A stretch of 64,000 bases of DNA, taken from positions 1-64,000 of the forward strand of contig NZ_VANI01000002.1 in assembly GCF_005771435.1 (NCBI RefSeq), in the 5' to 3' direction. The notes under the pieces were generated by a model, which saw nothing but the letters and a program-made list of their open reading frames with translations, was not told the origin of the DNA and did not search any database. This DNA is from Microbulbifer harenosus (GTDB taxonomy: Bacteria; Pseudomonadota; Gammaproteobacteria; Pseudomonadales; Cellvibrionaceae). Shown here piece after piece: positions 38,506 through 58,186 of this stretch (position 1 is its first letter; each line of letters opens with the position of its first letter). Both the position numbers and the translations under genes were made by a program.

Positions 38506-38533
38506 TTGATAATAGAGTCTCGTAGTGTACAAT
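38506..38533 (+). promoter_or_regulatory. Sigma-70-type promoter of the AraC regulator
   Basis: TTGATA (38506-38511) and TACAAT (38528-38533) are 16 bases apart. Transcription would start near 38540, directly before the Fur box at 38541 and about 40 bases before the regulator's ATG. Confidence 0.65.
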
Positions 38534-38540
38534 CATTGCT

Positions 38541-38559
38541 AATGATAATTGTTATCATT
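38541..38559 (+). promoter_or_regulatory. Near-perfect Fur box controlling the cluster regulator
   Basis: AATGATAATTGTTATCATT contains TGATAAT-T-GTTATCA, differing from the 7-1-7 Fur motif (TGATAAT-N-ATTATCA) at one base. It lies at the expected transcription start, so Fur-Fe(II) would block the promoter. It is the strongest iron-control signal in the window. Confidence 0.88.
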
Positions 38560-38578
38560 AAGGCTAAGGATCAAGAAA

Positions 38579-39580
38579 ATGGATTTGTCAGGTCTCGAGC
38601 CCGCTAACTGCAGACCGTTCAGTGTTGCAGATCACTATCTGATGGAAAGGGGGAGTGAACAGGGAAAGTGGCACCGGGTGTCGCTGCCGCCGGAAAAGGG
38701 GGCGACGGAATTTATCACCTGCCGTATCTGTGAGGATATCTCGCTTACGCGCAGTCTCTGCACCTTTGTCAGTCCCTTCCTGTCGCGCGTGTGTTACCCG
38801 ATGGACACAACCCTGCTGGTTTTTGGCTTCCGGGGGCGCAGCGCCATTGGTTTTTCCGAGGACGATCTCTCCCACGTGGTCAGGCCCGGCGACGTCTGGA
38901 TGGTCAATACCGGAGGCGAGGCTTTGTACCGTTACACGCCGGCGCACGATCTGAATGAAATGGTGGTGATCAAGTATGCCACCCGTCGAATCGGCTTCGT
39001 GTTCCCGCAACAGACGCGAGCCGTGCTTCGCGGCGACCGCCCGTGGATTGTGCGGCTGGGCTATCAGGAGTCCAACGACTCATGGATATCCGATCTGCTG
39101 AACAATGGCTTTACCTCCTCACTGGACTGCCTGCGGGCGGAAGCCCGCGCCCTGGATGTGCTGGCGCGCTGGCTGCGACCGCTGACAGATACGGTGGACG
39201 AAGCCCGTGTGGCTCCGGGCATCGATGGCGATCCGCATCTGGAGCAGGCCATCCGCCTGCTCACCAGGGACCTCGCGGCCACTCCATCGCTGGAGGAGCT
39301 GTCCCGGGTTTTGGGGATGAGTCACACCCGCCTGAATCGCGCCTTCAAGCGCGCGTTTGGCAAAACCGTGTTCAGCTGGCTACGGGATTATCGTCTCGCA
39401 CGCGCGCGCGCAGCGTTGAAAGACGGTCATCGCAGCATCACGGATATCGCCTTTCAGTGCGGTTTCAGCAGTGCCAGCCATTTTTCCCAGTCGTTCAAAC
39501 AGTGTTATGGCTGCACACCGGTGGAATTCCGCAGCAGCCACAAATTGCAGGAAGTCTATTGTGAATACGGAACCCGTTGA
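38579..39580 (+). CDS. AraC-family activator of the cluster (PchR/PdtC-like role)
   Basis: A 333-residue regulator with an N-terminal effector-binding region of about 220 residues and a C-terminal double helix-turn-helix (LEELSRVLGMSHTRLNRAFKR, then ITDIAFQCGFSSASHFSQSFKQCYGCTPVEFR). Siderophore loci often encode such a regulator, repressed by Fur and activated by the ferri-siderophore (PchR for pyochelin). The promoter and Fur box at 38506-38559 support this. AAGGA precedes the ATG at 38579. The exporter gene starts inside its 3' end (39561), so the two are translationally coupled. It probably activates the minus-strand operon and the receptor gene, neither of which has an obvious Fur box. 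Confidence 0.88.
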   Translation: MDLSGLEPANCRPFSVADHYLMERGSEQGKWHRVSLPPEKGATEFITCRICEDISLTRSLCTFVSPFLSRVCYPMDTTLLVFGFRGRSAIGFSEDDLSHVVRPGDVWMVNTGGEALYRYTPAHDLNEMVVIKYATRRIGFVFPQQTRAVLRGDRPWIVRLGYQESNDSWISDLLNNGFTSSLDCLRAEARALDVLARWLRPLTDTVDEARVAPGIDGDPHLEQAIRLLTRDLAATPSLEELSRVLGMSHTRLNRAFKRAFGKTVFSWLRDYRLARARAALKDGHRSITDIAFQCGFSSASHFSQSFKQCYGCTPVEFRSSHKLQEVYCEYGTR

Positions 39581-40805
39581 GCGCCCGGCGCGCAATGTCG
39601 GTCTGGGCCTGTTGCTCGCCATCCTGGTGGCCAATGGTGTCGCCCACAGTGTATTTGTCATTGCGATGCCGATTATCGGCCGCCAACTGGGCCTGGCCGA
39701 CGTGCAGACCGGGGTGATCCTCACCGTTTCCGCCGTTGTCATGATGCTCGCCGCACCCTCCTGGGGGCGCTACAGCGAACGGGCAGGGCGGCGCGCGGTG
39801 GTGGCGGCCGGCATTCTCGCGAGCGGGATTTTCCTGTTGGCGGTTGCCGGTGTGGTATTTCTGCGCCAGAGCCTGCTGCTCACGCTGCCGCTCACCTTTT
39901 GTCTGCTGTTCGGCTTGCGCCTTCTGCAAGCGGTTGGTGTTGGCGGGGTGATGCCGGCTTCCCAGGCCTACGTCGCGGATGCCACCGGGCGCGCAGCGCG
40001 GACACGTGGAATGGGCCTGATGGGGGCGGCGTTCGGGGCCGGAACCATTCTCGGAGGGGCTGCGGCAGCGATACTCGGCCAGTGGGTGGCCGTACAGGGG
40101 CTGCTGGGGCTGGGAGCACTGTTGCTGCTGGTATGGTGGGGGCTGTGTCGCCGTCTGCCGGAAATCCGACAACCCGTGCCGGGTCGCATAGCGGAGCGGG
40201 GCGCGCTGCCCTACGCAACACTGTGGCCCATGCTGTTGCTGACATTTTGCGCACTGCTGATATACGGCATGTTGCAACAGGTGATCGGGTTGCGCCTGCA
40301 GGATCAGTTCGGCTATAGCAGCGCCGAAGCGCTGCGCGCAACCGGAATCGCGATGATGTTGACCATGGCGGTGATGGTGATTGTGCAACTTGGGTTCCTG
40401 CGCTTCGTCGACTGGCCAGCGGCGCGCGTGCTGCGATGGGGTTGCGGCCTGTTGGTACTGGCACTGACGTTAGCCACACTCAGCACCGGTTACGGTCAGT
40501 TGCTGATGAGTATGGTATTGGTGGGGGGCGCGATGGGATTGGTGTTCCCGGGTAATCTCGCCCTCTTGAGCCTGGCGGTGGGCGCGAATGCCCAGGGGCG
40601 CATTGCCGGTGTCAACGGCGTGAGCAAGGGGTTGGGCTTGGCGCTGGGGCCGGTGAGCGGCGCAGCGCTGCACCAGTTTTCTGTGTCGGCGCCGTTCGTG
40701 TTGGGAATAGTGCTGGCACTGGTCATGGTGCTGCTGGCCTTCTGGGGCTCCCAGCCCGAGAAGGCGGACACTCTACTGGAATGCGACGGGGCAGGGCAGA
40801 TCTGA
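39561..40805 (+). CDS. MFS transporter, probable metallophore exporter
   Basis: 414 residues with 12 hydrophobic helices. The MFS loop 2-3 motif appears as APSWGRYSERAGRRAVV, and helix 5 carries the GAAFGAGTILGGA segment of drug:proton antiporters. The start is a GTG at 39561, overlapping the regulator stop by 20 bases. Coupling to the Fur-controlled regulator points to export of the cluster product. Its 3' end overlaps the convergent acyl-CoA dehydrogenase gene by 33 bases (40773-40805), leaving no room for separate terminators. Confidence 0.87.
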   Translation: MNTEPVERPARNVGLGLLLAILVANGVAHSVFVIAMPIIGRQLGLADVQTGVILTVSAVVMMLAAPSWGRYSERAGRRAVVAAGILASGIFLLAVAGVVFLRQSLLLTLPLTFCLLFGLRLLQAVGVGGVMPASQAYVADATGRAARTRGMGLMGAAFGAGTILGGAAAAILGQWVAVQGLLGLGALLLLVWWGLCRRLPEIRQPVPGRIAERGALPYATLWPMLLLTFCALLIYGMLQQVIGLRLQDQFGYSSAEALRATGIAMMLTMAVMVIVQLGFLRFVDWPAARVLRWGCGLLVLALTLATLSTGYGQLLMSMVLVGGAMGLVFPGNLALLSLAVGANAQGRIAGVNGVSKGLGLALGPVSGAALHQFSVSAPFVLGIVLALVMVLLAFWGSQPEKADTLLECDGAGQI

Positions 40806-41957
40806 CTTGTAAACGCTCTGCGCCACAATATCGCGGTGGATTTCGGAGGTGCCGTCAATGATGCGATACAGACGCGCATCCCGGTAGAAACTCTCCACCA
40901 GGCTGTCCTCATGGCAGCCGCTGCCGCCGAATATCTGCAGTGCGCGATCGGCGACCCGTCCCAGGGTTTCCGTAGTAAACACCTTCACCGCGGAGATATC
41001 CGCGCGGATTGCCCGGTCTGTTGCACCCGCAGCGGCATCTATGTTTGCGGCTGTCTGCATCAACAACGCGCGCGCCGCGGCGATTTCGATGGCGCTGTCG
41101 GCGATCATCTGTCGCACCGGGCCAAACTCTCCGATGGTTTTGCCGAACTGCCGGCGGTTTGTCGCATGTTGTTTCATCAGGTGCAACAGCCGCTGGCACT
41201 TGCCCACCGCGCGCGCGCCGACCTTGGCCAGACGCGCTTTTCCCAGTGTATCGCCGAGCATCCTGAAACCGTTGTTCAGTTCTCCGAGCAGGGCTCCATG
41301 GGGTAGTTTGATATCGTGAAACAGTAACTCCCGGTGGCTGGTCCCGCGGAATCCCATCATTTGAAACGTTTTTCCCAGCTCGAACCCGGGTAGATCCCTG
41401 TCGACGAGAAACAGGGAAATACCGCGGGCCCCCAGGCCGGGCTCTGTGACCGCCGCAACGATAAAGAAATCGCAGAATTCCGCATCACTGGTGAAATGTT
41501 TGATGCCGGAGAGGCGCCAGCCATTCGTGGTTTTCTCGGCGCGGGTGCGGATGGCAGCGGCATCAGAGCCCGCTTCCGGTTCCGATACCGCGAGGCCGCA
41601 GAAACGCTCACCGCGTGCGCTGGGAAGCAGGTAGCGTTCAATCTGTTCCCCGCTCCCCGACGCCAGGCACTCGTAAACGTTTCCTCCCGCGCGGCGGGCG
41701 AGAATTTCCTTGGTGGCTCCCAGTTGCTCCTGCAGCAATATATTTTCCACCGTGGAAAACCCCTGGCCGCCAAACTGTTTGCTGATATTGCCGGCAAACA
41801 AGCCTGCGGCGCGGGCTTTTTCCACAATGGTGTTTGAGACACCAAGCGATAACCCGCGCGCCGTTTCAAGGTCTGCTTCCAGTGGCAGGAGTTCTGTATC
41901 GACAAACAGACGTGCCCGCTCGACCAGTTCCTGCTGCGATTGGCTGATTGGATTCAT
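40773..41957 (-). CDS. Acyl-CoA dehydrogenase family flavoenzyme
   Basis: A 394-residue FAD enzyme of the acyl-CoA dehydrogenase superfamily. Substrate and FAD segments visible are CGLAVSEPEAGSDAAAIRTRA, WRLSGIKHFTSDAEFCDFFIV, RRQFGKTIGEFGPVRQM and LQIFGGSGCHEDSLVE. In the C-terminal motif the residue aligned with the medium-chain enzyme's catalytic Glu (YEGT) is Asp (IIDGTSEIH), so the base may differ or lie elsewhere, as in isovaleryl-CoA and prolyl-carrier dehydrogenases. It is the last gene of the minus-strand operon, 19 bases after the PigE-like gene. Related enzymes desaturate the fatty chain of tambjamine and the prolyl unit of prodigiosin; here it may make the enoyl substrate for the PigD/PigE-like pair. 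Confidence 0.88.
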   Translation of the reverse strand: MNPISQSQQELVERARLFVDTELLPLEADLETARGLSLGVSNTIVEKARAAGLFAGNISKQFGGQGFSTVENILLQEQLGATKEILARRAGGNVYECLASGSGEQIERYLLPSARGERFCGLAVSEPEAGSDAAAIRTRAEKTTNGWRLSGIKHFTSDAEFCDFFIVAAVTEPGLGARGISLFLVDRDLPGFELGKTFQMMGFRGTSHRELLFHDIKLPHGALLGELNNGFRMLGDTLGKARLAKVGARAVGKCQRLLHLMKQHATNRRQFGKTIGEFGPVRQMIADSAIEIAAARALLMQTAANIDAAAGATDRAIRADISAVKVFTTETLGRVADRALQIFGGSGCHEDSLVESFYRDARLYRIIDGTSEIHRDIVAQSVYKSDLPCPVAFQ

Positions 41958-41976
41958 TGAGATTTGCTCCGTTCAA

Positions 41977-44487
41977 TTAATCCAGAAACGTCGACATGTC
42001 CCTACAGACACTGTCGAAAGCGAGAATGAACTGGGAGGCCTCCGCTTCGGTCAGCACCAACGGCGGCTGGATACGCATAATGCGGTTACTGTTTGCGGTC
42101 AGGAAGGTGAGGATGCCGTGCTCTTGGGACAACTTGCTGACGAAGCGCAGTACAAACATGTCCTGCATACTGGATTCCAGTTCCGCAATGGCCTTGTCCA
42201 GATGACGCTTGGCACTGTCCGGTAGCATGCGATAGCTGCTGCGGGGATTCCACGGAAGGCGGTGGGCGAGTTCCTGTACCGTGGATTCGATACTGCCCTC
42301 GAAAGACTGGCAGAATTCGATGGCCAGCATCAGCCCGCGCCCGCGCACCGCGCGTATGAAGGGGTACTGGGCGGCGATTTCACGCAGCGCGTCGAGCAGT
42401 CGGGCTCCGACAAGCCGCGCGTTTTCCGCCAGGTTTTCCTCCTCGATAACATCCAGTGTTGCCAGTGCCGTTGCCGCTGCCAGGTTGCCGCCACCAAATG
42501 TGGAGGTGTGCAGAATACAGCGGTCGATGCTTCCGTAGGCCGTGTCCCAGAGTGTTGGCGAACACAGCGTTGCGCCGATGGGTATCGCGCCGCCGGACAG
42601 GGATTTCGACAGCACCAGAATATCCGGTACAACGTTTTCCCATTCGCAGCAGAACAGTTTGCCGGTGCGTCCCAGGCCCGTTTGCACTTCGTCGAGAATC
42701 AGCAGGGCGCCGTAGTGTGTGCACAGCCTGCGCACCTCACCCAGATAACCGTCTGCCGGGACGATAGCGCCGCCTTCCCCCTGAATGGGTTCGATCACCA
42801 GTGCCCGCACATCGCCCTTGCGCAGTTCGGCCTCCAGAGACTCGAGACAACCAAACGGAATTTCGCTGCACTGGGGCAGCAGTGGCTCGAAAGCGTTGCG
42901 GTGCCGCTGGCGTCCGGTTACCGAGAGCGCGCCGAGCGTCTTGCCGTGGTAGCCGTTCTCGCAGTAAAGCAGGCGTCCGCTGTCGGTAGCCGCCAATGCG
43001 AGTTTGATGGCGGCCTCCACGGCCTCGGTGCCCGAGTTGCTGAAAAACACCCGCGACAGGTCGCCGGGAGCCAGTTGGCTCAAGCGCTCGGCCAGCAGAG
43101 CGGTGTGGTAGGGAACGGAAACATACTGCACAAACGTCGGGTGTTCCGCCGCCAGGTATTCCCGGATTGCCGCGGTGATTTTGGGGTGATTGTGGCCGGT
43201 GTTCAGGCAGCCGTAGCCGGCGACAAAATCCAGGTAGCGGGTACCGTCCAGATCTGTCAGTGTGCAGCCACTGCCTGATTGAAAGACGCGCTCGCAGTGG
43301 TTGAACTGATAGAAGTCCGCAAGTAGTGGATTGATGTGGCGGCGGAAGCGCGCCAGACTTGCCTCGCGCTGCTCCCCATGGCTCGACGCCGTGGCACCTT
43401 GGCTACTGCTGCGGTGGTGTGGCTGCAGGTCGCGGTAGTGTTCGTCGCCGATACGCTCGCCAGCGCTGGCCATGGGATGGGTGGTAAATCCGTGCCTCTG
43501 TGCCAGCTCTCCGATTTCCAGAACTTTTTCCAGAGGCAAAACCCGGCCCAGGGAATAACTGTCGCGGCGGCCCTCCAGCGACAGAATCAGGGTTTCCGCC
43601 AGGCAGCCGTTCATGAACATTTTCGGGGCGAAGTTGCCGGCCGCGTCACCAAAACTGACTTCCGGCCCCGCCGATATCAGGCCACCGTCGATCAGCAGAA
43701 TGTCGCTGCGGACAGTGTGTGCCGGCATCACATCCCGCGGCAGGGCAGCATCCACCACCACACTCCCGGGGCGCAGCCTGGCCGGGTCGATTACACCGCC
43801 GGTGGAAGTGGCGGCGACGTAGAAGCGGAGGTTTTCGTAGCAGTCTTCCATGCGATTGCTCAGCCGGATGGCGGAGTGAAACGCCTGCGGGATATAGCCG
43901 AGAAGTTGCTCGCGTTTTTCATCTCCTCCCCGGTGTACCAGCGTCAGGCGGCAACCCTGTTCGAGAAGGAGCAGGGCAATTGCCAGAGCGATGGAACCCG
44001 GATAACCAACCACCGCAACTTCCGTATCCACCGGGGAAACGTCGAGTTTTTCCATGGCCTGCAACAGGTTTTGGTAAGCGGCATAGGCGGTTAGTGAATT
44101 GCCGGTGGTCACAGGAATCTTGACCTTTTCCGCAGTATGTATGCCGCGGTTGCCGACAATGCCGGTAAAACCGCCGAGACCGACAATCTCTGCCCCGCGC
44201 GCTTTCAGGTCTTCAATTCCAGCCTCCACGCGCCGCGCCACGGTGCGGGGGTCGGCCAGCATTTCCTCGGCGGTCAGTGGCATGTAGTCAACGATGCCGC
44301 TGCAGCGGGCGCCGGTGCTGCTCACCACTTCATCCAGTGCGAAAAAGGGCACAAGGTTGCGCCACTGCCACAGCTCCGGAGAAAAACCCCGGTCCTGTTC
44401 GCGAAAGCTGCGCTCGGTCAGGTCGATCAATTTGGCGTGGCGTTTGAGGCCCACCGAAGTGGGGTGTGCGATAAATCCGAATTTCAT
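41977..44487 (-). CDS. PigE/TamH-like bifunctional thioester reductase-aminotransferase
   Basis: An 836-residue fusion. Residues 1-345 resemble long-chain acyl-ACP reductase (AAR): LGGFTGIVGNRG, TTGNSLTAY, an NAD(P) loop VVGYPGSIALAIA and a Cys (MNGCLAETLILSLEG, about residue 295) aligned with the AAR catalytic Cys. Residues 385-836 form a class III PLP aminotransferase with NSGTEAVEAAIKLA, LILDEVQTGLGRTG and the PLP lysine in VLSKSLSGG (about residue 628). This is the layout of PigE (prodigiosin) and TamH (tambjamine): a thioester becomes an aldehyde, then an amine. The ATG at 44487 gives the PigE-like MKFGFIAHPTS. It directly follows the PigD-like gene, as expected for partners. Confidence 0.88.
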   Translation of the reverse strand: MKFGFIAHPTSVGLKRHAKLIDLTERSFREQDRGFSPELWQWRNLVPFFALDEVVSSTGARCSGIVDYMPLTAEEMLADPRTVARRVEAGIEDLKARGAEIVGLGGFTGIVGNRGIHTAEKVKIPVTTGNSLTAYAAYQNLLQAMEKLDVSPVDTEVAVVGYPGSIALAIALLLLEQGCRLTLVHRGGDEKREQLLGYIPQAFHSAIRLSNRMEDCYENLRFYVAATSTGGVIDPARLRPGSVVVDAALPRDVMPAHTVRSDILLIDGGLISAGPEVSFGDAAGNFAPKMFMNGCLAETLILSLEGRRDSYSLGRVLPLEKVLEIGELAQRHGFTTHPMASAGERIGDEHYRDLQPHHRSSSQGATASSHGEQREASLARFRRHINPLLADFYQFNHCERVFQSGSGCTLTDLDGTRYLDFVAGYGCLNTGHNHPKITAAIREYLAAEHPTFVQYVSVPYHTALLAERLSQLAPGDLSRVFFSNSGTEAVEAAIKLALAATDSGRLLYCENGYHGKTLGALSVTGRQRHRNAFEPLLPQCSEIPFGCLESLEAELRKGDVRALVIEPIQGEGGAIVPADGYLGEVRRLCTHYGALLILDEVQTGLGRTGKLFCCEWENVVPDILVLSKSLSGGAIPIGATLCSPTLWDTAYGSIDRCILHTSTFGGGNLAAATALATLDVIEEENLAENARLVGARLLDALREIAAQYPFIRAVRGRGLMLAIEFCQSFEGSIESTVQELAHRLPWNPRSSYRMLPDSAKRHLDKAIAELESSMQDMFVLRFVSKLSQEHGILTFLTANSNRIMRIQPPLVLTEAEASQFILAFDSVCRDMSTFLD

Positions 44488-44522: not shown

Positions 44523-46988
44523 TTATCCGCACTCGGCTCGGTGCCAGGCGGATTCCGACAGCAGGCTGAGGCCGTCTCCATCTGAATCGTGTGCGATCAG
44601 CACTTCGGCGATGTTCACCGCGCCGCGCTGTGTGAGCATGGTGTGCAACCGACGTCCGTCATAGATATTGAGGCGATGGCAGTAAACCGGCACATTGCCG
44701 GCGTGATGTGCCACATCAACGGTGTTCAGTCGCGTTGGTACCACTACCTGGCTGCCGTCTTTGCTCGAACTGCGCGCGTCCAGATAGGTTCGAATCATCG
44801 ACAGAACACCATTGCACAGATAAAAGAGGTTCACGCTGATGTGGTCGCGTTGCGGATTGTTAGCCAGCGCCTCCGCCAGCCGGTGGTGCATGTCAGGGAC
44901 CAGGGCGCGGGCACCGTCGCCGATAAACGCAAGTACATGGTGCCGGCTGGTGCGGGCGATGTAGGGCAGCGCTGACAGTGCATCGCCCATTAGCGCGCGC
45001 CCGTACCAGCCGGAAAACCCGGGATCCGTGCGCGGAATATTGCGCAGTGCGGAAAGGCCGCCGCGCCCCACGTCATATACCCCGGTGTAGCGATAGTTTT
45101 CCTCTTGTATCAGGCGGTGAACCAGTTTTCCCATGTGCATGGTGAAATAGCTGGCAGACATTGGCAGGGTGTCGAGGTAGTCCACGGGCACCCCTTCTTC
45201 CATTTGCTGTACCTCGCGTAGCGCCGCTCGACGGAGTGTCAGCACCTGTGGGTCCACGTCCAACCGCTCCAGCACCGCATCGAGAAATTCGTTGAGGGGA
45301 AGCGGTAACGCGATATCCGTGAACGGCGAAAGATGCGCAGTGTTTTTATTGACCTGCACAATCCGCAGGTTGCGCGCCAGTTTGCTGTCGGAAAATGGCG
45401 TGGCTGCCTGATCAATTTTGCTTTTCAGGAAAAAGAGACACTGGGATTCGACGTCGTGCAGCTTTCCGTTCTGATGCAGAAAGTGATAGAGCCTGCGACT
45501 GAAGGCGTAGACGCCGCAGGCACCCAGATAGTTCGGATTGGGGGTGCCGTCTTCGTAGGCAGAGACTGATCCCGGGTGAGTTAGCGCATCTGCCAGGCCG
45601 ATCCCCGCGCGCTCGGCGATCTGGTAAACGCGCGTTCGCTGTGCGGCGGAGAGTGGGCCGCAGTACCACAGCAGGCGGGCGCGCGAGCGGTTGATGATTT
45701 CCATCGCCGCATCGATCAGTGCGTTCCGTCGCGAATCGCTGTTCGCATCCGCTATAGCGGCGATACGCGGAGCGGGTATTTCCAGAGCCACCTGTTCCCT
45801 GCTCTCGAGTACACCGGGCGTAGCGAAAATGAATACCGGCCCCGGTTCGTCCCGCAGCCGGGCCAGGGCGCGTCCCAGTTGCGTGGCGATGTCTTGGCGT
45901 TCGTGGATATAGAAATGGGGAATACCGCGCGCCGCGATCACCTGGCGTCCATCGGTCTCGGGATCAAGCGTGCTTTGAAAAGCGTACCAGGAGTGTTCGG
46001 GGCTGTCGGCGCAGATGATCAATCCCGGTGCACGGGCTCGCTGGAGATTGGAAAGGGTGCCGCGAAACTCATCGATCATGCCCGAAGTCACGGTGATGAC
46101 GTAGGCCCTTTGGTATAGCTGCCATCCCGCCAGTGCGCCTGCCGCGAGGCTGTGTTCATTGTTGCCCGTCAGGCAGCGGGGTGCCTGCGCAACGGCGTCG
46201 TCTTCGCTGAGGCGGTGCATGGAGCGGATGAAGTTGGCCACCATGGAGCCGGTGTAATAGTGAAAATCCCAGTGCGCCGGCCAGTTACTCTGCATAAAAC
46301 CGTAGATGCCGGCGGCGAGTGCCACGGGATCGTCAGCGGCTTTCAGAGCGCGCGCCAGTATCTTGTTCAGATAGCAGAAATCGAGATGGTCCAACAGCAG
46401 TTTGAGCAGGCCGGCGCGGTCCGTTTCCGGCATATTCCGATGAACCCGCAGCTTGATGCTGCCGTCCACATAGCCCAGAGCATCATCCAGTTCGCGCATG
46501 GGAATCAGCAGGTTTTTCGAGTGGGGTGACAGGCGGCTGATGCGGCAGTGACGACTGAGGACGGTGAAGGGATCCGGCGCGTCGTCGCGATTGGTATGGG
46601 GGAAGGGTACGCATTCGGTATCCACAAAGAAAATATCGAATGTCGCCGGGTTGGCGGCAAGCGCGCCCACGGCATCGTCCAGGCTGGTGTATTGCCGCAG
46701 GGAAAACGCGAAGCGGGTTTTTCTGCCGGTATGCGAGAAAAACTGTCGGGCCTGGCGGCTGGTCGCGGAGAATAATTCCTCCTGACTGCAGCTGCTGTAA
46801 CCGGTATTCGCGTTCACGGCGTACCGTGTGTGCACTTCCGCGACTTCGCCTGCCGATGAGACGCCAGCCGTTTCACCTGGATCTTGGATGGCGTGCAGAA
46901 ACGTCATCACCTGGTCCAGATCTTCGCGCAATAGCAATTTGTCCGAGACTACACAAATTCCGATTTCGTGGTTTTCGGTCCTGTTCAT
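44523..46988 (-). CDS. PigD-like thiamine diphosphate-dependent enzyme
   Basis: An 821-residue ThDP enzyme. The ThDP/Mg motif is FIGDGARAL, continuing to LFYLCNG (about residues 690-725), the GDG-x(25-28)-N signature. The pyrimidine-binding half has TGNNEHSLAAGALAGW, whose Glu is the likely activator. An N-terminal extension of about 220 residues precedes it, as in PigD. PigD condenses decarboxylated pyruvate with an unsaturated aldehyde or thioester in a Stetter-type addition to give a 1,4-dicarbonyl, which PigE aminates and cyclises to a pyrroline. The adjacency to a PigE homologue makes this identity likely; acetolactate-synthase-like chemistry cannot be excluded. Confidence 0.82.
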   Translation of the reverse strand: MNRTENHEIGICVVSDKLLLREDLDQVMTFLHAIQDPGETAGVSSAGEVAEVHTRYAVNANTGYSSCSQEELFSATSRQARQFFSHTGRKTRFAFSLRQYTSLDDAVGALAANPATFDIFFVDTECVPFPHTNRDDAPDPFTVLSRHCRISRLSPHSKNLLIPMRELDDALGYVDGSIKLRVHRNMPETDRAGLLKLLLDHLDFCYLNKILARALKAADDPVALAAGIYGFMQSNWPAHWDFHYYTGSMVANFIRSMHRLSEDDAVAQAPRCLTGNNEHSLAAGALAGWQLYQRAYVITVTSGMIDEFRGTLSNLQRARAPGLIICADSPEHSWYAFQSTLDPETDGRQVIAARGIPHFYIHERQDIATQLGRALARLRDEPGPVFIFATPGVLESREQVALEIPAPRIAAIADANSDSRRNALIDAAMEIINRSRARLLWYCGPLSAAQRTRVYQIAERAGIGLADALTHPGSVSAYEDGTPNPNYLGACGVYAFSRRLYHFLHQNGKLHDVESQCLFFLKSKIDQAATPFSDSKLARNLRIVQVNKNTAHLSPFTDIALPLPLNEFLDAVLERLDVDPQVLTLRRAALREVQQMEEGVPVDYLDTLPMSASYFTMHMGKLVHRLIQEENYRYTGVYDVGRGGLSALRNIPRTDPGFSGWYGRALMGDALSALPYIARTSRHHVLAFIGDGARALVPDMHHRLAEALANNPQRDHISVNLFYLCNGVLSMIRTYLDARSSSKDGSQVVVPTRLNTVDVAHHAGNVPVYCHRLNIYDGRRLHTMLTQRGAVNIAEVLIAHDSDGDGLSLLSESAWHRAECG

Positions 46989-47009
46989 GATTTCCCTTGT
47001 GACCGTTCG

Positions 47010-51020: not shown

Positions 51021-52768
51021 GAGAATCTCCAGGGTGGGGTGACACGAGTGTAGGAATCCGTATGCAGGTCGCCGTTAAAGTGCGATTGCTGCGGCAGATC
51101 GCGCAGATTTTCGATGACAAGGTTTTTGCATGCGTCTGCCAGCGCCGGTTCCAGCAGCGCTGTACCCATGCGGCAGGCGTGCAAGTGGGACTGGCTAAGC
51201 AGTGTGGCTGCGCCCAATAGCGAGGTGTTTGCCTGACCGCCGCGGTGGCAGAAACTCCTGCTCAACAAGCCCAGCAGAACGCCCTGGGCCGCGAGGATGC
51301 CGCCGAGCAGATCCAACGCGGTGAACAGGGTGCCGCCGCCGTGGCCTCCGGCGCGACCGATCAGATCGGCCAGGCCAGAGTAGGCCTGCACAGTGAAATC
51401 TGTGCCGGGGATATCCAGTGCGCCGTCCAGCTGTCCCCAGGCTCCGGCGTGGGTGTACACAAGGCCGGGACTGGCCGCGGCCAGCTGCCGGTAATCCAGC
51501 CCCAATTCTTCTGCTTTGCCCGGGGCCCAGTTGTGCAGGAACACCTGCGCATCAGAAACCAGCTCCACCAGTTGCGCGCGCCCGGCTGCGCTCTTGATGT
51601 CGATCTCGATCACTTCTTTGTGGTGATTGAGGGCGTCGAAGCGCGCCGAGCAATCAGCCACCAGCGGCGGCATGCCCCGCAGAGGATCCCCACCCGGGGG
51701 TTCTATGCGGACGACCCGCGCGCCGAGCAGGGACAACAGGTGTCCAGCCATCGGGCCCTGAATACGGCGGCAGGATTCCACCACCGTCAGTCCGCTCAGG
51801 GGCTGATCCTGTTCGCGGGGCGGCGGCAGTGGTGTGTCGGTCGGTATTGCCGGATGCAGCTGCCAGGGGCCCGCTCGCAGCAGTTCCTCAACATCACTGT
51901 CGCGCGCGCGCTCTTCAATGGTGCGCTGTCGGCACAGGGCGACACCGGCCTCGCCGCAGATGCGTGTGACTTGAGCGAAGCTCAACTTGGCCAAGCGCTT
52001 GTGCAGGCGTTCGGGCAGCGGACAGATGCCTTTGGCATAGCGCTGCAGGAAGGACTGCCAGCCCCTGCCTGCTTCCACGGGTTCCAGCCCCAGCGCGTCG
52101 CACAGCCGGCGCCAGGGATCGGCGGAAAGCGTTTCCAGTTCGAAGCGCACGCCGTCCGCGGATCGGAACGGCGGCCGCAGCCCCGCGTCGTGGTGCCCGG
52201 GCAGGATTTCCTCCGCGTCTTCCCGGGTGGTCGCACCGGCGAGGTACTGACCGGCGCAGAGCAGCCCGGCGGACGCCATGGATACCCGGCTGCGGGAAAT
52301 GCCCAGTCCGCGGCGGCGTGCCAGGGCCGTTGCCAGGCAGGCCTGGAGTGCCAGTGTCGCGGAGACGGTAGACAGGTAGGGCAGTGGAATCGGCTGCGCC
52401 CTACCTGTTGCCCGGCCGTGCACCGACATCAGTCCGGTGGCCGCCTGCAGGGTAGCTTCACAACCGGCGCGCTGTTCCGAATCGGACCAGAAGCTAAAAC
52501 GGCATTCGACCGATTCAAAATCCGGTGTGATAAAGGTAAGGGGCAGGTTGGTGCCGGCATCCATCAGGGAGTGATTTTCCACCTGGATACCCAGTGCCCG
52601 ACATTGGAAGAGCAGCGCCTTGACCACCGGCTGCAATGCGGGTGAGGCGTGCTGGAAATTGCCGACGATTGCGCAGTTGGAGAAAAAATTATTGATATCC
52701 ACGATGGCTGAGACCGGTTGAATCTGTGCCAGTGAAAATACGCTGGGAAGACGCTCCCCTGCTGTCAT
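51017..52768 (-). CDS. CaiB/BaiF-related protein with halves in swapped order
   Basis: A 583-residue protein with two segments of family III CoA-transferase character. Residues 320-520 match the family's N-terminal half: GLTVVESCRRIQGPMAGHLLSLLGARVVRIEPPGGDP, EVIEIDIKSAAGR, FLHNWAPGKAEELGLDY, and LFTALDLLGGILAAQ with Asp486 near the expected catalytic Asp. Residues 125-290 instead look like the family's C-terminal half: ATLALQACLATALARRRGLG, FRSADGVRFELETLS and WRRLCDALGL. The order is therefore C-half then N-half, like a circular permutation. Residues 1-120 are unassigned. I recall CaiB-like proteins in thioquinolobactin/PDTC loci. It may transfer or hold an activated acyl group; the true reaction is unknown. 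Confidence 0.72.
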   Translation of the reverse strand: MTAGERLPSVFSLAQIQPVSAIVDINNFFSNCAIVGNFQHASPALQPVVKALLFQCRALGIQVENHSLMDAGTNLPLTFITPDFESVECRFSFWSDSEQRAGCEATLQAATGLMSVHGRATGRAQPIPLPYLSTVSATLALQACLATALARRRGLGISRSRVSMASAGLLCAGQYLAGATTREDAEEILPGHHDAGLRPPFRSADGVRFELETLSADPWRRLCDALGLEPVEAGRGWQSFLQRYAKGICPLPERLHKRLAKLSFAQVTRICGEAGVALCRQRTIEERARDSDVEELLRAGPWQLHPAIPTDTPLPPPREQDQPLSGLTVVESCRRIQGPMAGHLLSLLGARVVRIEPPGGDPLRGMPPLVADCSARFDALNHHKEVIEIDIKSAAGRAQLVELVSDAQVFLHNWAPGKAEELGLDYRQLAAASPGLVYTHAGAWGQLDGALDIPGTDFTVQAYSGLADLIGRAGGHGGGTLFTALDLLGGILAAQGVLLGLLSRSFCHRGGQANTSLLGAATLLSQSHLHACRMGTALLEPALADACKNLVIENLRDLPQQSHFNGDLHTDSYTRVTPPWRFS

Positions 52769-52963: not shown

Positions 52964-53236
52964 TCAACCGCCGGCAACGGCCGGCAGAATAGTGATGGTG
53001 TCACTGGGGGAGACAGCGGTGGCAAGCCTCTCCCGAAAACGGATGTCATCCTCATTGACGTAAATATTCATGAATTTGTGAACCTCATCGCCACTCATCA
53101 GACGCTCCCTGATCCCGGGGTATTGTTGCTCCAGGCTTTCAATAATCTCCCCGATGGTTCCCCCGGTTGTTTCCACTTCTTTCTGGTCTCCGGTAAGCGC
53201 GCGCAGAAGTGTCGGGATTTTGACTTTAATGGTCAT
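52964..53236 (-). CDS. CysO-like sulfur-carrier protein (MoaD/ThiS fold)
   Basis: A 90-residue ubiquitin-fold sulfur carrier ending in TILPAVAGG, the same ending as mycobacterial CysO. The body (KVKIPTLLRALTG, FMNIYVNEDDIRF, LATAVSPSD) is also very CysO-like. The terminal Gly-Gly is adenylated by an E1 such as MoeZ and converted to a thiocarboxylate. No residues follow the Gly-Gly, unlike QbsE of thioquinolobactin, which needs trimming. It lies directly after the JAMM gene. A repeat-like 195-base gap separates it from the CaiB-like gene. In this cluster it most likely donates sulfur to the product rather than to cysteine, since no cysM-like gene is nearby. Confidence 0.92.
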   Translation of the reverse strand: MTIKVKIPTLLRALTGDQKEVETTGGTIGEIIESLEQQYPGIRERLMSGDEVHKFMNIYVNEDDIRFRERLATAVSPSDTITILPAVAGG

Positions 53237-53308: not shown

Positions 53309-53719
53309 TCAGGTTCCGCGAAGGACGCGAGTGGCTTCCTCACTGACGCGCCCGTCGATGATGCGGTAACTGCGAAGTTCACCGCGGCTCTGGCTGTCTG
53401 TGGATACCAGCAGGTAGTGGACCTGGGGGTCCCACGCATGCTGGATATCTTCGCGGCTGGGGAATGCCCTGCTGTGTGTGTGGGAGTGGTAAAACACCAG
53501 CGGGGTTTCCTCGCGGTCTTCCATTTCCTGCCAGACGCGGAGCTGCTGCCGGGGATCGAACTGGAAGAAGGTTTCCGAGCGCGCGGCGTTGTCCATATGA
53601 ATCAGGCGGTGTTGGCTGCCGTCGCGACCGGTGGCGATGATGCCGCAGGCTTCCAGCGGGTGCTCGCGATATGCGTGTTCGAGGATGGCCTGAACATGGG
53701 ATTCCTGAATCTTCAACAT
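53309..53719 (-). CDS. Mec-like JAMM/MPN+ metalloprotease
   Basis: A 136-residue zinc protease. The JAMM motif is complete: Glu in HPLEACGII, then HSHTHSRAFPSREDI, which fits HxHx(7)SxxD. It closely resembles mycobacterial Mec (VWQEMEDREETPLVFYHSHT, HYLLVSTDSQSRGELRSYRI). Mec releases cysteine from CysO-cysteine, while QbsD trims the thioquinolobactin carrier. Because the carrier here already ends in Gly-Gly, release of a product or adduct from the carrier is the better guess. It lies 37 bases after the MoeZ-like gene and 72 bases before the carrier gene. That short gap holds the repeated text GGTGTCCTAAA. Confidence 0.92.
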   Translation of the reverse strand: MLKIQESHVQAILEHAYREHPLEACGIIATGRDGSQHRLIHMDNAARSETFFQFDPRQQLRVWQEMEDREETPLVFYHSHTHSRAFPSREDIQHAWDPQVHYLLVSTDSQSRGELRSYRIIDGRVSEEATRVLRGT

Positions 53720-53756: not shown

Positions 53757-54926
53757 TCAGTAAGCGGCTAGCTCGGAATCGACTTCCCGTATCCAGGACA
53801 GGATGCCACCCTCCAGGTTGTGCAGTTTGGTAAACCCCTTTTCCTGCAGTGCGAGCAGAGCCTGGCGTGAACGCCCTCCCGCCTTGCAGTGCAGTATTAG
53901 CGGAATTTCCTTGTCGAGCCGTTCGAGACCGCGTCCGGCGAGCAGCTCCCCCAGAGGAATCGACACTGAACCGTCGATTTGGCAGATTTCCCGTTCGCGC
54001 TGTTCGCGCACATCCACCAGAAGGTGCGGATGTCCTTCGTGGCGCAGTTGCTTAAACGCTTGCACGCTGATGCCGGGCACCTCCGGCGCAGCTTCCGGCT
54101 CGCGACGGAGTCCACAGAAGAATTCATAATCTTCCAGTTGGGTAATGGTTTGGCGTTCCGGATTGCGGCGGATAGGGAGTGTGCGGTAGCTCATATCCAG
54201 CGCGTCATACACCATCAGCCGACCCAGCAGCGGCGTGCCGATACCGGTGAGAAGTTTGATGGCTTCGGTCGCCATAATGGAACCGATTGAGGCGCACAGG
54301 ATGCCCAACACACCGCCTTCGGAGCAGGATGGCGCGTGTTCGGGCGGCGGCGGTTCCGGGTACAGGTCGCGATAGTTGAGGCCGAGGCCCCCCGGGGCTT
54401 TTTCCCAGAACACGGATGCCTGGCCCTCAAAGCGAAATATGGAGCCCCATACGTAGGGCTTTTCCGCCAGGACACACGCGTCGTTGACCAGATAGCGCGT
54501 GGCGAAATTATCAGTGCCGTCAACCACCAGGTCATAGCGGGAAATAATGCTTTCAGCATTGTCCGCTTCGAGACGCTGATTGTGGATCTCGACGTTAACA
54601 AACGGATTGATCTCGCTAATCTTATCCCGCGCACTTTCCGATTTTTTGCGGCCGACGTCGGACTCGCCGTGAATCACCTGGCGCTGCAAATTGGAAACAT
54701 CCACCCGGTCAAATTCCACAATGCCGAGTGTGCCGACACCGGCGGCAGCCAGATAGAGCAGTGTCGGGGAACCTAGCCCACCGGCGCCGATCACCAGCAC
54801 GCGACTGTTCTTGAGGCGTTTCTGCCCCTGTAAACCGATATCGGGGAGTAGCAGATGTCGGCTGTAGCGTTCGAGTTCCCGCTTGCTCAACTCTGCATTG
54901 GCCTCAACGAGGGGGGGTATTTTCAT
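53757..54926 (-). CDS. moeZ: MoeZ-like sulfurtransferase: E1 adenylyltransferase plus rhodanese
   Basis: 389 residues. The N-terminal ThiF/MoeB domain has the nucleotide loop VLVIGAGGLGSPTLLYLAAAG, the QRQVIHG region, DGTDNFATRYLVNDA and the Cys of PSCSEGGVLGI. The C-terminal rhodanese domain has the loop LHCKAGGRSRQA with its persulfide Cys. The similarity to mycobacterial MoeZ is striking over the whole length. It adenylates the Gly-Gly end of the carrier and transfers sulfur to make a thiocarboxylate. The ATG at 54926 has GGAAGG upstream and gives the MoeZ-like start; an ATG 12 codons earlier (54962) is in frame. It is the first gene of the ten-gene operon. Confidence 0.92.
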   Translation of the reverse strand: MKIPPLVEANAELSKRELERYSRHLLLPDIGLQGQKRLKNSRVLVIGAGGLGSPTLLYLAAAGVGTLGIVEFDRVDVSNLQRQVIHGESDVGRKKSESARDKISEINPFVNVEIHNQRLEADNAESIISRYDLVVDGTDNFATRYLVNDACVLAEKPYVWGSIFRFEGQASVFWEKAPGGLGLNYRDLYPEPPPPEHAPSCSEGGVLGILCASIGSIMATEAIKLLTGIGTPLLGRLMVYDALDMSYRTLPIRRNPERQTITQLEDYEFFCGLRREPEAAPEVPGISVQAFKQLRHEGHPHLLVDVREQREREICQIDGSVSIPLGELLAGRGLERLDKEIPLILHCKAGGRSRQALLALQEKGFTKLHNLEGGILSWIREVDSELAAY

Positions 54927-55141
54927 GGTGTCGCCTTCCTTCGCCAGAATTTTCGCCATCAAACCGGCTTTATTTCTTTGGCGCTATCAAGCGTTGCGCG
55001 CTCAATTGTCATTTTGCGAACGCCCATCAAAAAAGCTGTACATAGCGCTCTTGAGGTGAAAGTGCAGCGTTCTTCAGCTTGTAGGTTCCAGGGTGCCGAC
55101 TTCCTATCATCGTCCACCGTGTGAAATTTCAGGAAGACACT
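54927..55141. promoter_or_regulatory. Divergent promoter region between moeZ-like and receptor genes
   Basis: This gap of about 215 bases must carry the promoters of the long operon and of the receptor/methyltransferase pair. I found no Fur box here (best partial match near 55000). AraC-type control from the regulator at 38579 is therefore expected. AGGAAG at 55133-55138 is the receptor's ribosome site. Confidence 0.4.
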
Positions 55142-57160
55142 ATGAAAGTACGGCGACTCTGCGCGTGGCTTGTGGTCATCATTCAGTTTCCAGGCGCTGG
55201 TGTGGCGCTCGCGCAGGAAGATGATCGCGGCGCTCTGGAACAGGTGGAAGTTTCGGCCCGTGCAGAGACGGAGGCGGTACAGGCGCAACGGACACGCGGC
55301 GTTGTCGCGCTGCATCCGGCACAGCTTGCCGGGGGCAGTCTCGGCGCGCTGGAAGCGCGCGCAGCCAATGTGGCGGTCGAAGAGTCCTCGGTGAAAACCC
55401 GGTTGGTGATACGCGGTATGTCGTCGATCGATACGGGACTGCGGGACCCGGTGGGCTATGTACTCGATGGGGTTTCCCTGCCTCTCGGCGTCACTCAGGC
55501 GCCCTACCGCTTGAATGTGGAAACGATACAAGTGGAAAAAGGCGCTGCACAAAACCAGCGCAGTGGCAATGCGCCGGCGGGAAGTATCCGGATCGAATCG
55601 CGTCTCCCCAGCGACGCTCTTGCCGCCGGCACAGGGTATTCTCACCTGTGGCGCGAGGGGGCGGCAGGCCGGGAACCGTCGCGGGCACTGCAGGTCTCCG
55701 CCGGTGGTCCCGTGTCGGAACCCATGGCGCTGGCCGTCGCACTCCGGCACGAAGACGGCAATCCACCGTTCGACAATCTAATGGCCGCGCGCAAACCCCA
55801 GTGGCGCGCGGAACGGGACACAGCCCATGTGGCCTGGTCCTACCGCACCGACAGTCAGACCGATATCCGTGTGGACAGCCACTGGGAACAATGGGAGCGC
55901 GGTCGCGCCACTATGCGCTATCTGGAAGGCCCTTTGGCGACGGAGCGCTTTTCGGTTAACTACAACACCAAAACCCGCGATGAACAGAAAAAAACCGTTC
56001 ACTCCCTGCGGCTGGAGCGCGACATCGGCGGGCTGCAACTGGCATCGACCACTGGTGTCACCGGTTATCGGCAGGATTTTGTCATGGACCTGGATGCCGG
56101 GCCGATGAACACACCCCCGACGCTGTCTTCTCTTGAGGACCGGATGGTGTCGCAGGAATTCCAGCTGATGTCCGACAGGGAGGATTCCGCGTGGGCGTGG
56201 TCGCTGGGCGCCTATCTATCCCGGGAGGATACCGACGTGGATATGACGATAGGTCTCCAGCGGTTGCGGCGACAAACTTCGCTGGAAAACGAAAATGCAG
56301 CGGCGTTGGCGCGCGTGGATTTTTTCCCGCTCGACTCGCTGGAGCTGGGTGTAGGAGTGCGCATCGAGCGCAACCGCCAGTCGGGCAGGCAGCAGCTCAC
56401 GGGACTTTTTAATGGCGTCGACGGCGGTTACAGCATGGACGAGATGCACACCGCGACTTTGCCCGGCCTCTCTGCAGCGTATAGCTGGAGCGAGAAGGAA
56501 TCCGTCTACGCGAGTTATTACCGTGGTTATTTGCCCGGTGGCTACAATTACGCCGCCGCTAGCAGTCCGGAAACTTTTTCCTATGGCCCGGAAAAAAATC
56601 ACAGCGCGGAGGCTGGCTACCACGGCACCCTGTGGGGCGGGCGAGCGGATCATTCGATTGCCCTGTTTTACACCCGCTTTCGGAATAAACAACTGGTGGA
56701 TTTTCTGCCCGGAGCTTTGCAGACGATCTCCAATACCGGTGTGGCGGATATACGCGGCCTCGAGTACAGCCTGAACGCGCCGCTGAGCGATCACCTGACA
56801 CTGCAGGCGAACGTCGGTTACCAGCACTCGGAACTCGACGGTGGTCGTATGACCTATACACCGGAACACACTTCGTCTCTGCTGCTGGATTACCGCTATT
56901 CCGCCGCGTGGGCGGCGGAAATATCCGCGCATCATTCCAGTGGTTTTTATTTCGATCGACAGAACACCCTGGAACAGCCGGAATACACCGCGGTAAATCT
57001 CCGGCTGCGCTATGCCCTCGGGGATATCCACGGTGTGGTCTCTATTGGCAATCTTTTCGATGAGGTTATTTACAGCCGCGCGTTACGGACGGCGGCCGGT
57101 GTGCTGGTGGAAGACAGCAGACCGCGCACGCTCGCTTTTACCATCGGATACAGGATATAG
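55142..57160 (+). CDS. TonB-dependent outer membrane receptor of the cluster
   Basis: 672 residues. The signal peptide is MKVRRLCAWLVVIIQFPG...ALA, with cleavage near residue 24, followed by a TonB-box-like LEQVEVSA. The plug contains RLVIRGMSS, GYVLDGVSLP, LNVETIQVEKGAAQNQRSGNAPAGSIRIES; the barrel ends RTLAFTIGYRI, without the usual final Phe. It differs clearly from the Fiu-like receptor at 17198, so it should have its own ligand, most simply the metal complex made by this cluster. The ATG at 55142 follows AGGAAG. The methyltransferase gene starts 6 bases after its stop, so they form one transcript. Confidence 0.9.
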   Translation: MKVRRLCAWLVVIIQFPGAGVALAQEDDRGALEQVEVSARAETEAVQAQRTRGVVALHPAQLAGGSLGALEARAANVAVEESSVKTRLVIRGMSSIDTGLRDPVGYVLDGVSLPLGVTQAPYRLNVETIQVEKGAAQNQRSGNAPAGSIRIESRLPSDALAAGTGYSHLWREGAAGREPSRALQVSAGGPVSEPMALAVALRHEDGNPPFDNLMAARKPQWRAERDTAHVAWSYRTDSQTDIRVDSHWEQWERGRATMRYLEGPLATERFSVNYNTKTRDEQKKTVHSLRLERDIGGLQLASTTGVTGYRQDFVMDLDAGPMNTPPTLSSLEDRMVSQEFQLMSDREDSAWAWSLGAYLSREDTDVDMTIGLQRLRRQTSLENENAAALARVDFFPLDSLELGVGVRIERNRQSGRQQLTGLFNGVDGGYSMDEMHTATLPGLSAAYSWSEKESVYASYYRGYLPGGYNYAAASSPETFSYGPEKNHSAEAGYHGTLWGGRADHSIALFYTRFRNKQLVDFLPGALQTISNTGVADIRGLEYSLNAPLSDHLTLQANVGYQHSELDGGRMTYTPEHTSSLLLDYRYSAAWAAEISAHHSSGFYFDRQNTLEQPEYTAVNLRLRYALGDIHGVVSIGNLFDEVIYSRALRTAAGVLVEDSRPRTLAFTIGYRI

Positions 57161-57166
57161 CCCGCC

Positions 57167-58186
57167 ATGCCTACCGCTATTTCCCCGGCTGCCCGTTATG
57201 GCAGCGACGCCCAGTATCGCCTCTTCGATTTGTTGACCGCTCCGCTGCGCTGGGAAGTGCTGGCTGTTGCACTGGAACTGGGTATTTTTGATGACCTTAC
57301 GCTGCCACGTGCCGCTGGCGAGCTTGCGCAGCAATATGGGCTCGACGGCGAGGGAACCGAGCTGCTGCTCAATGCGCTGGTGTCGCTCGGCGTAGTCGGT
57401 AAACACGAGGACAGCTATTGTGTCGACGGCGGTTTTGCGCCGCTGCTCACATCCACTTCCGACATTTCCATGTCCAACTTGCTGAGTTATCTGGGCGAGG
57501 TCCGGCACGTGAGTGCCGACAACATCATCGCGCTCCTTCGCGATAAACAGCAGGTACAGACTGGGCCGGAAATGGTCCGGCCGGAATATTGGTCCCGGGC
57601 AGTGGGCGGTCTGCGTTCCTTTCACCGCTCGGTGAGGAACCCGATTGTGATGGATATCTTAAGCGGGTTGCCCTGCTGGCCGGGTGTCAAAAAGATGCTT
57701 GATCTGGGGGCCGGGTCGGAGAGCCTGGCGCTGGATATCTGTGCCGCCCGGCCGGATATCGACACCGTGATATTCGACCTGCCCGGGGTAGTGGCCAGTC
57801 TCGGGTCGCGGGTTACCGACAAGACTCGGATACAGCTGCGTGGGGGAGACATGAACTGTGATGACCTGGGGACAGGTTATGACCTGATCTGGGCTTCCAT
57901 GGTTTTTTACTACGCCCGCGATTTGACGTCGGTCATGGGGCGGATGCGGCGGGCGCTGCGACCGGGGGGGATGTTGATCAGTTTTCACGAAGAACTCAAC
58001 GACGACCGCACCGAACCCGAGTTTCACATATTGGGACGATTGCATGCGGAATTGAAATCCGGCCCCCTGTCTGTTGCCCGGGGTCGTGTTCGCGCCGCGG
58101 CGGCAGAGGCCGGCTTTCACAATGTGCAGTCGTTTAGTCTGCAAACGCCGTTCGGGCAGATGGAGCTGGTAACCGGCACCGCCTGA
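57167..58186 (+). CDS. SAM-dependent methyltransferase of the O-methyltransferase 2 family
   Basis: A 339-residue class I methyltransferase with an N-terminal dimerisation winged helix (YRLFDLLTAPLRWEVLAVALELGIFDDL) and a Rossmann domain. The SAM loop is MLDLGAGSESLALDI (about residue 174); the acidic loop is VIFDLPGVVASL, and a later segment is ALRPGGMLISFHEEL. Relatives methylate O, N or S of small aromatic metabolites. The PDTC locus also has a methyltransferase that caps a thiol group, so methylation of the cluster product, for tailoring or self-protection, is a fair inference. It is cotranscribed with the receptor and is the last cluster gene. Confidence 0.88.
   Translation: MPTAISPAARYGSDAQYRLFDLLTAPLRWEVLAVALELGIFDDLTLPRAAGELAQQYGLDGEGTELLLNALVSLGVVGKHEDSYCVDGGFAPLLTSTSDISMSNLLSYLGEVRHVSADNIIALLRDKQQVQTGPEMVRPEYWSRAVGGLRSFHRSVRNPIVMDILSGLPCWPGVKKMLDLGAGSESLALDICAARPDIDTVIFDLPGVVASLGSRVTDKTRIQLRGGDMNCDDLGTGYDLIWASMVFYYARDLTSVMGRMRRALRPGGMLISFHEELNDDRTEPEFHILGRLHAELKSGPLSVARGRVRAAAAEAGFHNVQSFSLQTPFGQMELVTGTA

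Follow-up and report, generated by a model that had tools for sequence, protein, structure and literature searches.

What is made by a locus in which genes for thiocarboxylate formation lie beside a PigD/PigE pair of the prodigiosin type? The question is raised by a 64,000-nucleotide stretch of the Microbulbifer harenosus genome (4.67 Mb; assembly GCF_005771435.1, contig NZ_VANI01000002.1, positions 1 to 64,000), referred to here as the window, in which 14 genes lie between argS (36581-38458) and sbcB (58496-59932). A preliminary description of this DNA had proposed a single hybrid metallophore, made by a gene combination with no known counterpart. Judged by its gene content, the locus is instead a cluster of the type for pyridine-2,6-dithiocarboxylic acid (PDTC; pdt clusters) and represents a second architectural type of that known cluster, of which PigD/PigE-type enzymes are, on comparison across genomes, regular members. 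We consider it probable that pdt-type loci serve two products, a thiocarboxylate chelator that is likely PDTC and a set of fatty alkylpyrrolines, with a single Fur/AraC switch likely controlling both.

Gene content and relation to the Pseudomonas pdt cluster

Gene families were called by Pfam/NCBIfam scans of the window proteins. The scans bore out the gene identities named in the preliminary description, including the PDTC-like sulfur set (ThiF-rhodanese, JAB, carrier, coenzyme A (CoA)-transferase and ligase), and likewise its statement that no non-ribosomal peptide synthetase or polyketide synthase modules are present among the genes. Two genes absent from its list were found, coding for a two-domain CoA-transferase and a protein resembling glycoside hydrolase family GH88. 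A metallophore product, as had been supposed, is supported by this gene content and appears likely.

In the published pdt cluster, PdtF to PdtJ are an E1-rhodanese, a JAB protein, a carrier, a CaiB protein and a ligase (PMC1779556), and the cluster of Pseudomonas ogarae F113 is given as pdtCKPELMFGHIJON (PMC3570484, PMC7415375). A Pseudomonas locus compared here (L014) has in its first half genes for an AraC regulator, a TonB-dependent receptor, a methyltransferase, a major facilitator superfamily (MFS) transporter, PigD, PigE and ThiF, and in its second half genes for JAB, carrier, CoA-transferase, ligase, an acyl-CoA dehydrogenase (ACAD), a further MFS transporter (MFS2) and the GH88-like protein. 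As this order lines up with C-K-P-E-L-M-F-G-H-I-J-O-N of F113, pdtL would be the PigD-like and pdtM the PigE-like gene. A PigD homologue from Xenorhabdus is named 'PdtorfL' in UniRef. The letters C, E and K we take to stand for regulator, permease and receptor.

Gene types C, E to M and P of the F113 cluster (PSF113_2605-2618), together with MFS2 and the GH88-like protein, are present in the window, with an ACAD of another subfamily standing for type O; Pseudomonas loci with the F113 gene order served for this comparison. The whole sulfur core (PdtF, G, H, I and J) and homologues of both pdtL and pdtM are found, whereas PdtC, E, K and P have counterparts by domain only (AraC, MFS, TonB and methyltransferase), their sequence similarity to Pseudomonas being weak or undetected. 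Gene order and ACAD subfamily also differ from Pseudomonas. The window order is common to Microbulbifer genomes G007 and G045 and to the loci of Hahella ganghwensis, Photobacterium arenosum and Xenorhabdus thuongxuanensis, although G045 and Xenorhabdus gave no TonB receptor match at that place. The latter three species have the same genes, with ACADs 54-66% identical to that of the window, and the literature search found no publication on their pdt-type loci. By the criterion adopted here, gene order is no requirement for pdt function. The earlier statement that no pathway has both halves does not hold, as Pseudomonas pdt-type loci carry PigD and PigE beside the sulfur genes.

Other known systems share parts of this gene set. 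The thioquinolobactin (qbs) cluster has the sulfur set, ligase, CoA-transferase, receptor and methyltransferase in common with the window, but a presumed qbs-type locus (G509b, used as a control) gave no match to PigD, PigE, ACAD or GH88, and a thioquinolobactin-type cluster was ruled out on this ground. No tryptophan/kynurenine (xanthurenate-pathway) family was found among the 14 genes by the same scans. The thioplatensimycin cassette (PtmA3/PtmU4) resembles the window in its ligase and two-domain type III CoA-transferase and differs in its core acid (PMC6006322). The 2-methyl-3-n-amylpyrrole (MAP) branch of prodigiosin biosynthesis likewise has a PigE-type two-domain enzyme and a PigD-type thiamine diphosphate (ThDP) enzyme side by side, but no family of the PigC or PigF kind was detected among the window genes by Pfam/NCBIfam, and none of the thioacid loci compared matches the Serratia open reading frames (ORFs) taken as other pig genes. 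A prodigiosin relict was ruled out by this lack of matches and by the clade of the window PigD, described below.

Co-occurrence and parallel divergence of the two gene sets

A PigD-alignment scan of genome contigs returned 92 relatives, of which the best 80 were kept. Thioacid genes lie within about 10 kb in 26 of these 80 (tblastn with window proteins), and a 27th (L047) was recognised from its flanking DNA. Such loci are found in Pseudomonas, Stutzerimonas kirkiae, Thauera, Advenella, Bisbaumannia, Hahella ganghwensis, Photobacterium arenosum and Xenorhabdus thuongxuanensis, as well as in two actinobacteria. Further genes of the Serratia prodigiosin locus are matched in 21 of the 80, and none of the 80 has both sets.

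As this sample had been chosen by PigD, a second was drawn by the thioacid CoA-transferase from 298 genomes of the genus of Pseudomonas sp. QTF5. The CoA-transferase was matched in 14/298, and in 13 of these 14 the locus also has PigD and PigE (12/13 without the centre genome G416, which had been picked through PigD), so that the two sets, earlier thought an unprecedented pair, occur together as a rule in this sample. The exception is G512, whose frame-broken locus lies on a 23-kb contig in which no PigD, PigE or GH88 match was found. One of the 13 genomes, G509, has the control locus G509b as a second thioacid locus. A class-wide draw of 369 genomes, including that of M. harenosus, gave a full-length CoA-transferase match in the M. 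harenosus genome only, and partial matches (33-38%) in four others. Six records of plasmid-borne relatives were obtained, none of which covers 80% of PigD.

In the PigD tree (84 rows; quick method, support by the Shimodaira-Hasegawa-like approximate likelihood ratio test only, with long-branch warnings), the window protein falls in a pdt clade of 39 rows (support 100) and not in the prodigiosin clade. The pdt clade includes 28 thioacid loci, whereas the 21 prodigiosin loci are all placed outside it; L047 is labelled 'neither' in this tree. The other 11 rows of the clade are without thioacid genes in the locus and consist of two on short contigs (L020, L021), two Photorhabdus, five Pectobacteriaceae and two Sphaerotilaceae; the genome of L021 carries thioacid genes on another contig. 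The KSLSGG lysine of PigE, which we take to bind pyridoxal phosphate (PLP), and the NEH or SEH motif of PigD, presumably part of its active site, are kept in 28/28 rows. The NGC cysteine in the reductase domain of PigE, for which a role has been described (PMC8341465), is also kept in 28/28.

PigD-PigE pairs of the pdt clade with no thioacid genes nearby were seen in Pectobacteriaceae and Sphaerotilaceae (L017, L022, L026, L030, L024, L031), and these are possible stand-alone alkylpyrroline genes. The PigD of Photorhabdus (L019, L037) is solitary, with no PigE-type neighbour or thioacid genes; it is sister to that of the full Xenorhabdus cluster and looks like a remnant.

Protein distances were compared over loci chosen from those fetched, loci with missing distances being left out. 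Distances of PigD and of the CoA-transferase are correlated with r 0.96 (20 loci; 0/999 permutations as high), those within the sulfur set with r 0.91 and 0.94, and those of PigD against PigE, ligase, CoA-transferase, ThiF and GH88 with r 0.90-0.96 (16-21 loci); the values are r 0.80 for ligase-GH88 and r 0.86 for ligase-MFS2. With correlations this high, the PigD/PigE and sulfur halves have diverged in parallel.

Two sets of actinobacterial loci, L047 with L132 (Streptomyces caatingaensis) and L044 with L131/L163 (Micromonospora), carry CoA-transferase, ligase, ACAD, GH88, MFS2, PigD and PigE, with no match to the carrier, JAB or ThiF. They are a candidate source of PDTC in Streptomyces, PDTC2-Fe having been isolated from a marine Streptomyces (PMC7374359).

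The GH88-like protein was searched for in 21 chosen genomes, 12 with thioacid genes and 9 with a pdt-clade PigD and no thioacid genes in the locus. It was matched in 12/12 of the former (E 1e-34 or better); among the nine whose loci lack thioacid genes, eight gave no match and one a weak match (E 6e-8), and no ACAD match was found in these nine loci. Since both proteins track the thioacid genes, they are tied to the chelator half and would probably help to form the pyridine ring, making them candidates for the ring-forming steps of PDTC. A place of the ACAD in the pyrroline branch, suggested by its position next to PigE in the window, was not our first choice, because the pdt-clade PigD loci without thioacid genes lack an ACAD match and because PdtO adjoins the sulfur genes in Pseudomonas. 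In the GH88-like protein the NVDAFA aspartate is Asp in 24/24 rows and aligns with the IIDC aspartate of glucuronyl hydrolase, presumably one of the catalytic residues of that enzyme, while the second such residue is not obviously kept. An action of the GH88-like protein on a dihydropyridine ring is speculative.

The ACAD tree compared 22 pdt rows with 8 others (two of the 8 being the same protein), after removal of five over-long pdt ORFs and six paralogues from the M. harenosus genome. The pdt rows fall into a group of 7 and a group of 15, the metagenome-assembled genome G434 joining the former weakly (80/70). Both groups have Asp at the position where a Glu base, as we assume, usually stands. 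This Asp is no special mark, as an ordinary paralogue from the M. harenosus genome (L168) has it too.

Predicted products and competing explanations

In the chelator half, the ligase PdtJ would activate a pyridine dicarboxylate, PdtF would charge the carrier PdtH, PdtG would trim it, and PdtI would move sulfur from PdtH to give the thiocarboxylic acids. The methyltransferase may S-methylate the thiocarboxylic acid, and the chelator would be exported by the MFS proteins and re-imported by the TonB receptor. In the other half, PdtL would transfer the acetyl unit from pyruvate onto C3 of a C14-C18 2-enoyl thioester, PdtM would reduce the thioester to the aldehyde and then transaminate it, and the amino ketone would close to a 5-methyl-4-alk(en)yl-3,4-dihydro-2H-pyrrole. 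As no PigB-type oxidase was found among the 14 genes (Pfam), the ring is expected to remain at the pyrroline stage. On the route to prodigiosin, a 2-enoyl thioester receives an acetyl group through PigD and is then reduced and transaminated by PigE, which gives a dihydropyrrole, the dihydro form of MAP (H2MAP); the reduction was seen with lysate and not with purified PigE alone (PMC8341465).

Compounds of the predicted kind, 3,4-dihydro-5-methyl-4-alk(en)yl-2H-pyrroles with C11:0, C13:1 and C15:1 chains, have been reported from P. ogarae F113 and, earlier, from P. putida DSM 3601 (PMC7415375), and their ring is that yielded by PigE in prodigiosin biosynthesis (PMC8341465). By calculation, the chains correspond to C14, C16 and C18 enoyl chains, and m/z 238, 264, 280 and 198, 228 fit pyrroline and PDTC-derivative formulae. 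A paper on PDTC reportedly has strain DSM 3601 in its title, and the alkyl-dihydropyrroles of Pseudomonas were reportedly first described by Hildebrand and Budzikiewicz in 1986. Among four strains, only F113 yielded the three named pyrrolines, and it is also the one strain given in the pdt row of the gene table (PMC7415375). With wheat extract both compound families rise in F113, by as much as 930-fold for m/z 198 and 46-fold for m/z 280. In the accessible text the F113 authors name no genes for the pyrrolines. In a literature search that left subscription journals mostly uncovered, no publication was found in which PDTC or the Pseudomonas pyrrolines are connected with pdtL/pdtM or PigD/PigE. 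PigD and PigE are a candidate genetic origin for the alkyl-dihydropyrroles of PDTC producers, for which no assigned genes were found, and the new point is the prediction that PDTC clusters are two-product clusters.

The same evidence bears on the hybrid molecule of the preliminary description, in which an alkylpyrroline would be attached to a thiocarboxylic acid or serve as its scaffold. According to published reports, F113 releases PDTC derivatives and alkyl-dihydropyrroles as separate compounds. In Pectobacterium, Brenneria, Mitsuaria and Pelomonas the locus around PigD/PigE has no sulfur genes, and no joining enzyme, whether a peptide or polyketide synthase or another recognisable type, was found among the 14 genes (Pfam/NCBIfam). 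A hybrid is therefore less likely than had been thought and, in our estimate, highly improbable, even though both halves lie in one likely operon, diverge in parallel and are held together in two actinobacterial loci.

Several points weigh against the two-product reading. The Microbulbifer products are predicted ones, none having been seen from Microbulbifer, and the letters pdtL and pdtM come from gene order and one UniRef name. The F113 pdt cluster was itself assigned by homology, its biological evidence entry being 'No' (PMC3570484), and PDTC was undetected in F113, where only derivatives were found (PMC7415375). Three further ions of the same molecular network as the pyrrolines are common to the four strains, including the three for which no pdt genes are listed (PMC7415375). 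In F113 biofilm the pyrrolines are up 13.7- to 44.6-fold, while PDTC derivatives are unchanged against planktonic cells (PMC7415375), which argues against one common switch. Only two of the 20 actinobacterial PigD loci carry thioacid genes, PigD and ACAD distances are correlated with r only 0.73, the parallel distances may partly reflect shared host ancestry, and the window PigD scores below the cut-off of its family model NF053552.1 (660 bits against 950).

The pairing of PigD/PigE with the sulfur genes would also fit a need for the chelator itself. The pair might build the precursor of the PDTC pyridine ring and no fatty pyrroline, for instance by the ThDP enzyme coupling two small acids and the reductase-aminotransferase closing the ring. 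Its regular presence in the matched Pseudomonas genomes, its absence from the presumed thioquinolobactin-type locus, where a ring of this kind is not required, and the differing biofilm responses of the two families are all consistent with this. We nevertheless regard it as improbable, as the skeleton of PDTC is stated to be that of dipicolinic acid (PMC1779556), the pair is also carried by genomes that have neither a GH88 gene nor thioacid genes at the locus, and a pair of exactly this kind is required for the alkyl-dihydropyrroles of two PDTC-type strains.

The chelator may also be other than PDTC, since the window ACAD is not an orthologue of Pseudomonas PdtO but belongs to a different subfamily, and the TonB receptor and methyltransferase are only about 21-30% like those of Pseudomonas. 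With the differing gene order, this would fit a different thioacid metallophore, formed by the same logic on a new core acid and accompanied by alkylpyrrolines. In both types, however, the ligase, CoA-transferase, GH88, MFS2 and sulfur genes have diverged in parallel with PigD and keep their motifs, and we hold a new core acid to be rather unlikely. The preferred explanation thus stays that of PDTC and fatty alkylpyrrolines as two products.

A function joining the two products can be put forward as a hypothesis that we think unlikely as matters stand. The PDTC clusters of two phyla would encode a two-part metallophore of small, anionic metal-PDTC and its own fatty counter-ion, in which the alkylpyrroline, cationic once protonated, forms an ion pair with anionic ferric PDTC and keeps the complex at the membrane. 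If true, this would explain both halves in one operon, and give a role to pyrrolines previously without gene or role.

For annotation, PigD/PigE-type enzymes are no mark of prodigiosin. The NCBIfam PigE model NF053554.1 scores 1390-1434 on PdtM-type proteins (window 41977-44487; L014:12400-14937; L017:12391-14928), and as these lie outside prodigiosin clusters it over-calls prodigiosin PigE; its labelling of PdtM as a prodigiosin enzyme calls for caution.

Features, regulation and genomic setting

Table 1. Features of the pdt-type locus in the M. harenosus window
Feature	Position	Strand	Basis or remark
Double Fur box, overlapping 16/19 and 15/19	38538..38562	+	before AraC gene
AraC-family regulator, PdtC position	38579..39580	+	PF12833; ATG at 38579
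MFS transporter 1 (MFS1), PdtE by position and domain only	39471..40805	+	PF07690
Acyl-CoA dehydrogenase, putative role of PdtO, different subfamily	40773..41957	-	Asp in DGTSE stretch
PdtM, PigE-type thioester reductase and aminotransferase	41977..44487	-	NF053554.1, PDB 4ppm
PdtL, PigD-type ThDP enzyme, pdt clade	44523..46988	-	NF053552.1, tree
GH88/UGL (unsaturated glucuronyl hydrolase)-like protein, PdtN or its unlettered neighbour	47010..48098	-	PDB 2ahf match
MFS transporter 2 (MFS2)	48095..49330	-	PF07690
PdtJ, carboxylate AMP/CoA ligase	49359..51020	-	PF00501
PdtI, two-domain type III CoA-transferase, PtmU4/QbsK type, predicted sulfur transfer	51017..52768	-	PF02515
PdtH, ThiS/MoaD-like sulfur carrier, C-terminus LPAVAGG	52964..53236	-	NCBIfam/Pfam scan
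PdtG, JAB peptidase (HSH...PS..D)	53309..53719	-	PF14464 (Prok-JAB)
PdtF, E1-like ThiF and rhodanese, MoeZ type	53757..54962	-	ORF start TTG
TonB-dependent receptor, PdtK position	55121..57160	+	PF00593; TIGR01783 below cut-off
O-methyltransferase with dimerisation domain, PdtP position	57167..58186	+	PF00891/PF08100

The ten genes from ThiF-rhodanese to ACAD form a run on the minus strand, flanked on the plus strand by AraC and MFS1 at one end and by the TonB receptor and O-methyltransferase at the other (Table 1). Their gaps are -4 to 72 bp, except for 195 bp between the carrier and CoA-transferase genes, and with one strand and such short gaps the run is likely one operon. As the ten-gene block is found again in other genomes, its association is beyond chance.

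The Fur box before the AraC gene, noted in the preliminary description, is present as a double box ending 16 bp before the AraC ATG. The whole window has one other Fur site of at least 15/19, at 17122, and simulated windows gave 0.05 matches of 14/19 per window and none higher (one orientation). A promoter-like site at 38506-38533 is no evidence by itself, as shuffles expect more such sites (5.4) than the 3 found.

The window PdtM scores 1390 bits with NF053554.1 (cut-off 850), and the window PigD is 91% identical to a Microbulbifer sp. homologue. The GH88-like protein (362 aa) has no Pfam match and is similar to unsaturated glucuronyl hydrolase (PDB 2ahf, E 7.7e-9). PdtJ is 60-62% identical to that of Pseudomonas pdt loci. 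The GTD stretch of PdtI is found in 27/29 rows, the remaining two being gapped, and the terminal motif of PdtH and the motif of PdtG are each kept in 27/27 rows. MFS1 is 37% identical to its counterpart in Photobacterium, 40% in Xenorhabdus and 58% in Hahella, with no match found in the Pseudomonas loci compared; its true start is probably later than the ORF start, while that of PdtF is probably an inner ATG.

The cluster looks like an insert in Microbulbifer, placed between argS and sbcB in the window and in G007. The sbcB gene is present in 48/48 genomes of the genus, and among the 30 Microbulbifer loci listed, 26 have argS within 1.5 kb of it. In G045 argS and sbcB are adjacent and the cluster lies about 7 kb beyond argS. 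Two Microbulbifer loci (L181 of G031, L197 of G039) have no argS within 1.5 kb of sbcB and yet no PigD, and may have something else at the same place. PigD occurs in 4/48 Microbulbifer genomes, three of them with the pdt type. The fourth, G015, has a PigD/PigE pair of the prodigiosin clade (C88:46980-48839; L004, L129), with no further match to Serratia prodigiosin-locus genes in the 19 kb around it.

The MFS1 and ACAD genes of the window overlap tail to tail by 33 bp (40773-40805). Residues 1-190 of the window PigD (44523-46988) lie outside the NCBIfam PigD match and, as an impression only, recall a receiver-type fold.

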